64,000 nt of DNA from Bacillota bacterium (lineage in GTDB: Bacteria > Bacillota > Clostridia > Christensenellales > CAG-917), in assembly GCA_023665365.1 (NCBI GenBank), contig JAMPEA010000005.1, forward strand, positions 1 to 64,000, in the 5' to 3' direction. The position numbers and the translations under genes are program-made. This document shows, piece by piece, positions 2,054 to 54,738 of this stretch; the stretch's first letter is position 1, and the number at the start of each line of letters is the position of its first letter. The notes under the pieces are model-generated. The model worked only from the letters and a program-made list of their open reading frames with translations. It made no database searches and was not told the origin of the DNA.

Positions 2054-2620
2054 TCGTCGTGTATTTTAAATAAAGTTTTCCCACCCCTTCCGACTTCGCG
2101 GTTTGCAAGGCAATCCCGCTCGTTCGCTTTGGCTACAAACAATCCACTGGATTGTTTGCTTAACGCGTCGCGCCCTTTGGGCTTTCCATTTCACTTTTTA
2201 TAGCGCGCACGTTTCGGGGTCCCCACAAAATGTCCCTATTTTGTGGGGTTTAGTATCGTCCGCTCGACACTCTTGCGAGTGCGAGATTATGCCACTCGTT
2301 CGCGGGCATATATACAACACTTGCCCGCTCACTTGTACTTGTTGTGTGCCTTGCGATTGAGCTACGCCTCAATCGCTACGTCACCCAACTCTGGTGCTTG
2401 GCACTCCCTTCCTCCGCGCCCTGCGCGTCGTGTTCTAAACTTCGTAACAGCCGTTCGTCGTGTAACACCCTATCAAGCAGACGTTATTCAAAACTTCTTC
2501 GTCAATAAAACTTGATATTTGGATGCAGTGCGCGAAAGACGAGTACGCGAGCCGCCCAGTGTACTAACGTACACGACGGCGAGCGCACGCAAGTCTGACA
2601 AAGCAATGCGCCAAATAGCA
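2054..2620 (+). repeat. Dispersed structured repeat R1, copy A
   Basis: This fills the 586-bp gap between mnmE and mnmG. It shares long blocks with copies at 15590-15980, 50685-51015 and (reverse) 52230-52785. Shared blocks include a start like CGTCGTGTAnTnTAAATAAA, CACCCAACTCTGGTGCTTGG, and hairpins GTGC-TTG-GCAC and GCGC-CCT-GCGC. The variable stem here is GCGGGCA/TGCCCGC (2302-2328). A GGGGTCCCC-type hairpin lies at 2221-2248. The 3' module GATGCAGTGCGCGAAAG (about 2522-2538) is shared only with copy D. Reading frames differ between copies, so I regard it as non-coding. Confidence 0.85.
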
Positions 2621-15589: not shown

Positions 15590-15980
15590 CGTCGTGTACT
15601 CTAAATAAAATAACCCGCCCCTTCCCTGCGGGCTTTCCCCTCCCGCTCGAACCACCCCACAAACAGGGGCGTTTGCGGGGACCCCGTAGGACGGGTGCAG
15701 TAGCTCCCTCTATGACTATTTAACTTCTCGTCGCTCGCGGGATGGGAAGTCGGCACGCGCACATCGAGTATCGTCCCCTCATTATGCCACTCGTTCGCAG
15801 ACCAAAAACAACACGGTCTGCTCACTTGTACTTGTTGTGTGCTACACGATTGGGCTATGCCTCAATCGCTACGCACCCAACTCTGGTGCTTGGCACTCCC
15901 TTCCTCCGCGCCCTGCGCGTCGCATTCTAAACTTCGTAAAAGCCGTTCGTCGTGTAACACCCTATCAAGCCAACGTTAAT
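15590..15980 (+). repeat. Dispersed structured repeat R1, copy B
   Basis: Same family as copy A, without the 3' module. Its variable stem is GCAGACC/GGTCTGC (15797-15821); copies A and C have GCGGGCA/TGCCCGC, with pairing preserved. A GGGG-type hairpin (arms 15655-15664 and 15671-15680) lies near its left end. R2 begins immediately after it. Confidence 0.85.
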
Positions 15981-16103: not shown

Positions 16104-16292
16104 TCATCCGTCACTGCGTGACACCCTCCCCTCAATGGGAGGGCTTTTTTGGATTGCTTCGTCATCGGGGACCCCGTATTTACCCACAACACAGGGACGT
16201 ATTGCGGGGACTCCGATAAACCCCATCAAACGCGGAGGTTTGACGGGGACCCCGTAGGGGAGGGCTTTTAATGCCACTTAAAATTTACTGCG
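16104..16292. other. Hairpin-rich intergenic tail upstream of the yyaC 3' end
   Basis: Contains CCCTCCC/GGGAGGG followed by CTTTTTT (16124-16151), which looks like a plus-strand intrinsic terminator. Two GGGG/CCCC hairpin modules follow near 16173-16204 and 16221-16247. The second has arms CCCCATCAAAC/GTTTGACGGGG and matches modules at 52691-52718 and 54711-54738. No gene is seen. Confidence 0.6.
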
Positions 16293-22620: not shown

Positions 22621-23035
22621 AAAACAAAAGCACAACTTGCGTTGTGCTTCTGGCGCCTGTTGAGGGACTCGAACCCCCGTGAATTAGCGGAACGTGCGAT
22701 TTTAATCGCCTCTTACGTGGAGCGTCCACTTCGAAAGAAGTGTCGGCTTGCTTCGCAAGCGCGGAGGTACTCCGCTCGGGGTAGAGCCCCCTCTTTATAA
22801 AACAAAAGCACAACTTACGTTGTGCCTCTGGCGCCTGTTGAGGGACTCGAACCCCCGTGAATTAGCGGAACGTGCGATTTTAATCGCCTCTTACGTGGAG
22901 CGTCCACTTCGAAAGAAGTGTCGGCTTGCTTCGCAAGCGCGGAGGTACTCCGCTCGGGGTCGAGCCCCCTCTTTGTAAAACAAAAGCACAACTTGCGTTG
23001 TGCCTCTGGCGCCTGTTGAGGGACTCGAACCCCCG
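22621..23035 (-). repeat. 178-bp tandem repeat downstream of tRNA-Asn carrying the tRNA 3' end
   Basis: Two full units (22621-22798, 22799-22976) differ at about four positions, and a third partial unit (22977-23035) runs into the intact tRNA-Asn. Every unit contains the last 29 bases of the tRNA (T arm, 3' acceptor strand, CCA) at 22651, 22829 and 23007. It also has a terminator hairpin GCACAAC-GCAA-GTTGTGC with a T-rich tail. The remainder is a chain of short hairpins, such as GCTTGCGAAGCAAGC, CACTTC/GAAGTG and GCGATT/AATCGC. The period is not a multiple of three, so reading frames through it are not conserved. Confidence 0.9.
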
Positions 23036-23082
23036 ACACTTCGGTTAACAGCCGAATGCTCTACCGACTGAGCTAAACAGGC
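23007..23082 (-). tRNA. tRNA-Asn (GTT)
   Basis: Minus strand: acceptor GCCTGTT pairs with AACAGGC, D arm AGCTCAGTCGGTAGAGC, anticodon loop CTGTTAA with anticodon GTT, T arm GGGGGTTCGAGTCCCTC, and an encoded CCA. It is 76 bases including CCA. A promoter stands 21 bases upstream. Confidence 0.95.
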
Positions 23083-50651: not shown

Positions 50652-50684
50652 AGATTCTCCTTGTTTTATGATTTAATATTTTTC

Positions 50685-51015
50685 GTCGTGTACTTTAAAT
50701 AAAGTTTCCCACCCCTTCCCTGCGGGCTTTCCCCTCCCGCAAGAATTAGGACGGCTGCGGCAGCTACCTCTTTCTCTACAAGGCAAACGTTGCTTGTGGG
50801 ATGGGAAGTCGGCGCGCGCACGTCGAGTATCGTTCCCTCTTTATGCCACTCGTTCGCGGGCATATAATCAACACTTGCCCGCTCACTTGTACTTGTTGTG
50901 TGCTACGCACCCAACTCTGGTGCTTGGCACTCCCTTTCTCCGCGCCCTGCGCGTCGCGTTCTAAGCTCCGCAACAACTGTACGTCATGTAACACGCTATC
51001 AAGCCGACGTTTTTC
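50685..51015 (+). repeat. Dispersed structured repeat R1, copy C
   Basis: The shortest copy. Its variable stem is GCGGGCA/TGCCCGC (50856-50882) as in copy A. The CGATTG.../CAATCG hairpin present in A, B and D is cleanly deleted between GTGTGCTACG and CACCCAACTC. The 3' module is missing. It faces copy D across ychF. Confidence 0.82.
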
Positions 51016-51141: not shown

Positions 51142-52224
51142 ATGAAATTAGGTGTTGTGGGTTTGCCGAACGTCGGCAAGAGCACTTTATTCAATGCCAT
51201 TACAAAGGCGGGCGCGCAGGCGGCGAACTATCCGTTTTGCACAATCGAGCCGAATGTCGGCGTAGTAGCCGTGCCCGACGAGCGACTCGCAAAACTTGCG
51301 GCGCTATACAACAGCAAAAAAATTACGCCTACTTCGCTTGAATTTGTTGACATTGCGGGGCTTGTCAAGGGCGCGAGCAAGGGCGAGGGACTCGGCAATA
51401 AGTTTTTGTCGCATATCCGCGAGGTGGACGCAATCGTACACGTCGTGCGTTGCTTCGACGATGCCAACATTACGCACGTGGACGGCAACGTAAACCCCGC
51501 CCGCGATATTGAAACCATCAACTTCGAACTCATCTTTGCCGACCTCGAAACGCTCGAACGTCGCATGACAAAGGCGCTTTCCATGGTCAAGGCGGACAAA
51601 AAGTATCAAGAGGACGTGGATAGAATTACGGTTATGCAAAAATGGCTCACCGACGGGAAGCCTCTTCGCAATCTCGACGTCGATGCCGATTTCGAGGCGT
51701 TTATCGACGAGCAATTTTTGTTGACGTCAAAGCCCGTTATATACGTCGCCAACACCGACGAGGCGGGCATCGGCGGCAACGCATACACCGCCGAGGTCGA
51801 GCGAATTGCCAAAGATGAAAACAGCGAGGCAATCGTACTCTGCGCCAAACTCGAAGAGGATTTTTCCGAGCTCGCCGACGACGAGCGCGAAATGTTTATG
51901 GCAGAGTACGGGCTTAGCGAAAGCGGACTTGACCGTCTTGTCAAAGCGTCCTATAAACTGCTCGGGCTTGTCAGCTATCTCACCGCGGGCGAAAAGGAAA
52001 CCCGCGCTTGGACGATAGTCAAGGGCACCAAAGCCCCCCAAGCGGCTGGCAAGATACACAGCGATTTCGAGCGCGGCTTCATTCGCGCCGAGGTAGTTGA
52101 CTACGCCACCCTCTTGGAGTGCGGTTCTTTTAACGCCGCCAAGGAGCGCGGCAAGGTGCGTAGCGAGGGGAAGGATTATGTTATGCAGGATAATGACGTG
52201 GTTCTTTTCCGCATAAACGTTTAA
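51142..52224 (+). CDS. ychF: Obg-like ATPase YchF
   Basis: A ribosome-associated P-loop NTPase that prefers ATP over GTP and is tied to stress and translation control. Of the 360 residues: G1 GLPNVGKSTLFNAITKAG at residue 6, NYPFCTIEPNVGVV, G3 FVDIAGLVKGASKGEGLGN and the C-terminal TGS domain with TIVKGTKAPQAAGKIHSDFERGF. The ATG at 51142 has CGGAGGATAT upstream. It lies between two inverted R1 copies. Confidence 0.96.
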   Translation: MKLGVVGLPNVGKSTLFNAITKAGAQAANYPFCTIEPNVGVVAVPDERLAKLAALYNSKKITPTSLEFVDIAGLVKGASKGEGLGNKFLSHIREVDAIVHVVRCFDDANITHVDGNVNPARDIETINFELIFADLETLERRMTKALSMVKADKKYQEDVDRITVMQKWLTDGKPLRNLDVDADFEAFIDEQFLLTSKPVIYVANTDEAGIGGNAYTAEVERIAKDENSEAIVLCAKLEEDFSELADDEREMFMAEYGLSESGLDRLVKASYKLLGLVSYLTAGEKETRAWTIVKGTKAPQAAGKIHSDFERGFIRAEVVDYATLLECGSFNAAKERGKVRSEGKDYVMQDNDVVLFRINV

Positions 52225-52229
52225 AATGT

Positions 52230-52785
52230 GCTATTTGGCGCATTGCTTTGTCAGACTTGTGCGCGCTCGCCGTCGTGTACGGCTTGTACACTAGGCGGCT
52301 CGCGTGCTCGTCTTTCGCGCACTGCGTCCAAATAATCCCATTTTAACGGCTACGCAAAACGAAAACTTTGGGCGGGCGTTACACGACGTAAAACTGTTAC
52401 GAAGTTTAGAACGCGACGCGCAGGGCGCGGAGAAAGGGAGTGCCAAGCACCAGAGTTGGGTGCGTAGCGATTGAGGCATAGCCCAATCGCGTAGCACACA
52501 ACAAGTACAAGTGAGCGGAAAATGTTGTTTTAATTTCCGCGAACGAGTGGCATAACCTCGCCCCACAAAATAGCATTTTGTGGGGACCCCGAGCGGACGA
52601 CACTCAATGTGCGCGCGCCGACTTCCCATCCCGCGAGCGACGAAAAGTTAAGTAGTCAAAGAGCGAGCTACGAGGAGCGTCCTACGGGGTCCCCGTCAAA
52701 CCTCCGCGTTTGATGGGGTGTGGTTCGAGTGGGAGGGGAAAGCCCGTAGGGAAGGGGTGGGTCATATTTTTTATAGTACACGACG
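52230..52785 (-). repeat. Dispersed structured repeat R1, copy D
   Basis: Reverse orientation; read from 52785 down it begins CGTCGTGTACTATAAAAA. Its variable stem is GCGGAAA/TTTCCGC (52515-52540), a third pairing-preserving version. It has two GGGGTCCCC-type hairpins (52561-52585, 52691-52718) and the 3' module (CTTTCGCGCACTGCGTCCAAA in plus orientation, split at 52311-52331) shared with copy A. The right end lies about 30 bases from argS. Confidence 0.85.
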
Positions 52786-54669: not shown

Positions 54670-54710
54670 ACGAGCGTATGTTTTTTTGCAATCACATACA
54701 AAAACGGGGT

Positions 54711-54738
54711 CCCCGTCAAACCTCCGCGTTTGATGGGG
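54711..54738. repeat. GGGGTCCCC-type hairpin module, free-standing copy
   Basis: CCCCGTCAAAC and GTTTGATGGGG pair around CTCCGC, preceded by ACGGGGT. Identical in sequence to the module at 52691-52718 and, reversed, to 16221-16247, but here not inside an R1 copy. Confidence 0.7.

Follow-up and report, generated by a model that had tools for sequence, protein, structure and literature searches.

A dispersed intergenic repeat family of ruminant-gut Clostridia with an internal hairpin conserved in pairing rather than in sequence

What kind of element keeps a hairpin paired while letting its sequence change? This question is raised by R1, a family of non-coding repeats of about 0.33 to 0.43 kb that sit between genes in the window (the 64,000 nucleotides at the start of one contig) and carry an internal hairpin, P2. 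A first-pass annotation had described four covarying base pairs with no mismatch among four copies and had suggested a structured RNA or a DNA transposition end. Copy A (2055-2483, plus strand) lies between the downstream end of mnmE and the start of mnmG, both on the minus strand, and has P2 at 2302-2328 (plus; GCGGGCA/TGCCCGC). Copy B (15590-15975, plus), with P2 at 15797-15821 (plus; GCAGACC/GGTCTGC), separates an ABC-transporter ATPase gene from a DUF1256 gene, both on the minus strand. Copy C (50684-51009, plus), with P2 at 50856-50882 (plus; GCGGGCA/TGCCCGC), is located between uppP/bacA (minus) and ychF (plus), and copy D (52366-52785, minus), with P2 at 52515-52540 (minus; GCGGAAA/TTTCCGC), between ychF and argS (both plus). 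All R1 limits are approximate because the ends grade into tandemly repeated short units; those of copy A are the outermost CGTCGTGTA and CAAGCNGACG motifs common to the copies. The stems, the flanks and the loop core CAACA are present as described in all four copies: stem positions 3, 5, 6 and 7 differ among GCGGGCA, GCAGACC and GCGGAAA, and the opposite arm matches every time. The 18-base right flank of P2 has 4 matches in the window against 0.01 expected, and occurs in exact form 12 times across the genome. The suggestion of a transposition end, in contrast, fails on position: P2 sits well within R1, which in the window copies extends from it by about 170-250 bp on the left and 100-155 bp on the right, so that P2 is not an end.

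The window belongs to a genome of 1.59 Mb (58 contigs), which contains further copies. We picked copies by both flanks, ignoring pairing, which makes this the independent test because a covariance model itself rewards pairing. Among the 22 distinct copies so obtained, P2 is intact in 21 (7 of 7 pairs), the exception being L003, with GCAGGCA/TGCCCGC and 6 of 7 pairs. The matched changes are therefore real, but the absence of any mismatch does not extend to L003, with its one broken pair, and the number of independent events is small: this genome has only three stem alleles, each fully complementary, in addition to the single-base variant L003, so that the "four covarying pairs" reflect few events rather than four independent ones.

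Beyond this genome, 7 of 60 relatives searched at the DNA level proved to have related copies, the 60 including the genome itself. A covariance model trained on 16 R1 copies yielded 30 matches in this genome and matches in 19 of the 43 genomes of the same family, spanning three genera, with up to 32 per genome; under stricter filters, the model identified no genome with R1 outside that family among 297 sampled from the order. Among named records, a related pattern is present in MAGs labelled "Clostridia bacterium", recovered from the colon of sheep and the cecum of roe deer; the Clostridia that carry R1 form a ruminant-gut group. No R1 match came from collections of phages, plasmids or viral contigs, and a literature search on this sort of repeat in Clostridia MAGs returned nothing relevant.

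At the family scale, the covariation of P2 is far beyond chance. In an alignment of 103 R1 copies (91 distinct) with three helices (P2, P1 and H3), 87.0% of the cells of the three helices together are paired, compared to 70.1% in shuffles. For P2 alone, the paired fraction is 80.6% (54.4% in shuffles and 28-54% in slid controls), 222 cells are changed on both sides (64 in shuffles) and the covariation value is 0.413 (0.120 in shuffles); none of 500 shuffles reaches the observed paired cells, double changes or covariation. The same site holds well over a dozen different stems across the family, including GCGGGCA, GCAGACC, GCGGAAA, GGGGCAA, GCGGAC and GTTGCG as well as GCAAACGA, GCAGACGA, GCGGCAGGAG, GCGGCAGAAGA, GCAATGCGCC, GCGGCGCGCC and GTCCGCGCA. 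A simple longest-stem test gave p < 0.05 in 36 of 54 segments, with the split stems of genomes G025 and G031 and the stems of G066 mostly falling short of this threshold, and P2 is broken in a few copies, for example by one pair in L154-L156. P2 is a real hairpin that is kept as structure rather than as sequence.

Matched changes of this kind could also result from mutation without selection. In a near-palindrome, template switching can rewrite one arm as a copy of its partner; stems would then change in matched blocks and remain perfect with no function to preserve them. Quasi-palindrome correction by this route is a known type of mutation (PMC3820800), and P2 stems do change by several pairs at a time and are almost purely Watson-Crick. 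Taken alone, however, this process leaves unexplained both the dispersal of R1 and the recurrence of a hairpin at the same site, between constant flanks, in three genera, and we regard it as quite an improbable full account of R1.

Is R1, then, an RNA? The element is non-coding: no conserved frame was found across the copies, P2 spans 27, 25 or 26 bases so that the reading frame shifts between copies, and Pfam returned no match for the frames that overlap or adjoin copies A, C and D. R1 could be a multi-copy structured RNA transcribed from one strand, with P2 a helix selected in the RNA and the copies dispersed RNA genes or UTR modules. The strong conservation of pairing and the presence of three helices that covary above chance fit this possibility, but the signals that should identify a strand are mixed or non-significant. 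On the minus strand, G-U exceeds A-C in P1 and H3, of which P1 varies little, but not in P2. The clear P2 stems are nearly all pure Watson-Crick, almost without wobble on either strand, in a listing in which some rows are not P2 because the long forms hold a second hairpin. Folding z-scores of ten cores are unremarkable on both strands, with means of about -1.3 for minus and -1.8 for plus, so that the supposed RNA strand does no better. Relative to neighbour genes, loose gene calls gave 32 convergent, 12 divergent, 27 sense and 13 antisense copies, an apparent sense bias among co-directional copies. Under strict calls (convergent 19, divergent 8, p = 0.05; sense 20, antisense 14), and after removal of likely orthologous duplicates (convergent 17, divergent 8, p = 0.11; sense 17, antisense 14, p = 0.72), this bias is gone. 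Nor did the comparison with known RNAs help, as no Rfam family matched at the gathering score in the window; at loose E-values, 16 loci in two sets gave only weak, chance-like sub-threshold matches. A consensus scan of copy C detected no promoter-like site inside. Given the mixed wobble counts, folding and orientation, we claim no transcribed strand for R1, and an RNA seems to us rather unlikely. Because the stems are near-pure Watson-Crick, the orientation bias is not significant and the folding z-scores are weak on both strands, we favor maintenance of P2 at the DNA level. Template switching in quasi-palindromes is compatible with this choice and could yield matched changes without selection.

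The gene context bears on another explanation, namely that R1 serves the neighbouring genes, from a fixed place, as a regulatory or terminator-like element. The copies do occupy the gaps between genes, frequently on the downstream side, and in the first 12 copies read the left end often points toward a gene start. Other copies, however, lie between convergent genes, the neighbour genes of different copies are unrelated, and relatives lack copies A and C at the same sites, all of which renders a fixed regulatory role extremely improbable. Separately, a 5' leader idea that came from those first 12 copies was dropped on wider gene context.

The comparison of equivalent sites supports the conclusion that R1 has moved. 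Of 13 relatives compared at the uppP-ychF gap, 12 share the gene order and the ychF promoter motif, and none of these has the repeat; in the thirteenth, G019, the upstream gene differs. Copy C is thus seen only in this genome, and its gain here is the simplest reading. Copy A was not found beside mnmG in the compared relatives. Lineage-specific near-identical sets point in the same direction, as in G062, where near-identical R1 copies have unlike flanks. Inspection of R1 ends by eye revealed no clear terminal inverted repeats and no consistent target duplication, with the limits blurred by tandem repeats. Copy D (52366-52785) is bracketed by two occurrences of AGTTTTACGTCGTGTA, perhaps a target duplication; the other copies examined showed none. 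At the borders of R1 in loci L110-L118 and L141-L157, there are tandem arrays of units of about 30-50 bp, for example TTGAACACGACGTGAACTTATTCGGAGTG.

R1 is also modular. It occurs in short, long and long-plus-hairpin forms, its halves are swapped between copies, and its left half has two alleles. Each of the three stem alleles is found both in short forms and in forms that contain an optional GATTGGG hairpin, a distribution suggestive of recombination between copies. Several R1 copies additionally contain nested mini-hairpins tagged by GGGGTCCCC: at 2216-2248 (plus) in copy A, at 15655-15685 (minus) in copy B, in another place in the element than in copy A, and at two sites in copy D, 52561-52590 (minus) and 52686-52718 (plus). 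The tag marks a second mini-hairpin family, with 7 window matches against 0.05 expected (2216-2224, 15677-15685, 16167-16175, 16245-16253, 52582-52590, 52686-52694 and 54706-54714); four of these fall within R1 copies, and the arms of the mini-hairpin vary from copy to copy.

Other repeats are present in the same window. R2, another intergenic repeat, forms a long imperfect hairpin at 2504-2629 and at about 52220-52350, beside copies A and D. The outer arms of R2 are apparently copy-specific yet complementary (AATAAAACTTG/CAAGTTTTATT at 2504/2619), and R2-related units are present in other genera. The region 22621-23082 consists of three tandem units with a 178-bp spacing, each with the 3' part of tRNA-Asn, and a single complete tRNA gene is predicted there, at 23007-23082 on the minus strand.

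Our preferred explanation, which we hold with slightly more confidence than doubt, is that R1 elements are miniature, non-autonomous, intergenic mobile repeats of a new family, in which P2 is maintained at the DNA level and read by shape by a candidate mobilising enzyme. Under this scenario, P2 would be extruded in single-stranded or cruciform DNA, and its shape together with the constant flanks would be recognised by a putative enzyme that copies or moves R1, while recombination between R1 copies would spread and shuffle the stem alleles as small cassettes. A bolder version is that the P2 stem serves as an "address" or compatibility tag that is inherited, can be exchanged, and is read through shape and pairing by a putative DNA- or RNA-based mobiliser, such that copies with the same stem would form interacting sub-families within one genome and R1 would represent a new class of element; we offer this as a speculation with little chance of being correct. 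With regard to the mobiliser, four families were searched (PF01797, PF00078, PF02371 and PF07282). Y1/RAYT, reverse transcriptase, IS110 and TnpB were rejected as candidates since they are absent from several copy-rich genomes and do not track copy number. In particular, no PF01797 (Y1/RAYT) gene was found in G000, G018, G025 and G066 despite many R1 copies, and G062 and G035 each have a single PF01797 match.

R1 is a previously undescribed repeat family of uncultured gut Clostridia, a new addition to the few mobile hairpin repeats known from bacteria. It is an unusually clean case in which the hairpin is conserved but its sequence is not, and sister copies in one genome carry several alleles; this makes the choice between selection on structure and template-switch mutation testable. 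R1 also carries a warning against relying on covariation alone: it usually serves to argue for a functional RNA, yet mobile DNA can give rise to it too.

Among known systems, the BOX elements of Streptococcus pneumoniae are nearest to R1 in build and distribution. BOX elements are dispersed, intergenic and modular, variable in length, with predicted stem-loops, and have been judged parasitic and non-autonomous; they are enriched between convergent genes and contain chance reading frames on both strands (PMC3049150). R1 resembles them in these respects, except that its convergent enrichment is borderline (the 19 versus 8 of the strict calls); it differs in having conserved motifs of its own and a hairpin of free sequence, the comparison with BOX being by description rather than by boxA, boxB and boxC sequence. 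REPIN/REP sequences are extragenic mobile hairpin DNA for which the ability to fold into a hairpin counts and in which a change in one arm is often compensated in the other (PMC3116915), and R1 is likewise extragenic, with a hairpin kept through compensatory change. However, REPIN/REP have RAYT transposases, which G000, G018, G025 and G066 lack; a REPIN has a spacer between two conserved REP ends in inverted orientation, which form one hairpin, whereas P2 is internal to R1 with two unlike flanks; and R1 is several times longer. MITEs are small, non-coding, multi-copy and non-autonomous (reviewed in PMC10969869), and so is R1, but inspection by eye showed no clear terminal inverted repeats or consistent target duplication, and no parent transposase was found among the four families searched. 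With dispersed structured RNAs of the kind collected in Rfam, R1 shares several conserved helices with compensatory change, although no Rfam family matched it at the gathering score. Because R1 differs from REPIN in the gene test and the comparison with BOX is by description, we class it as a new family, BOX/REPIN-like in general kind but a member of neither.
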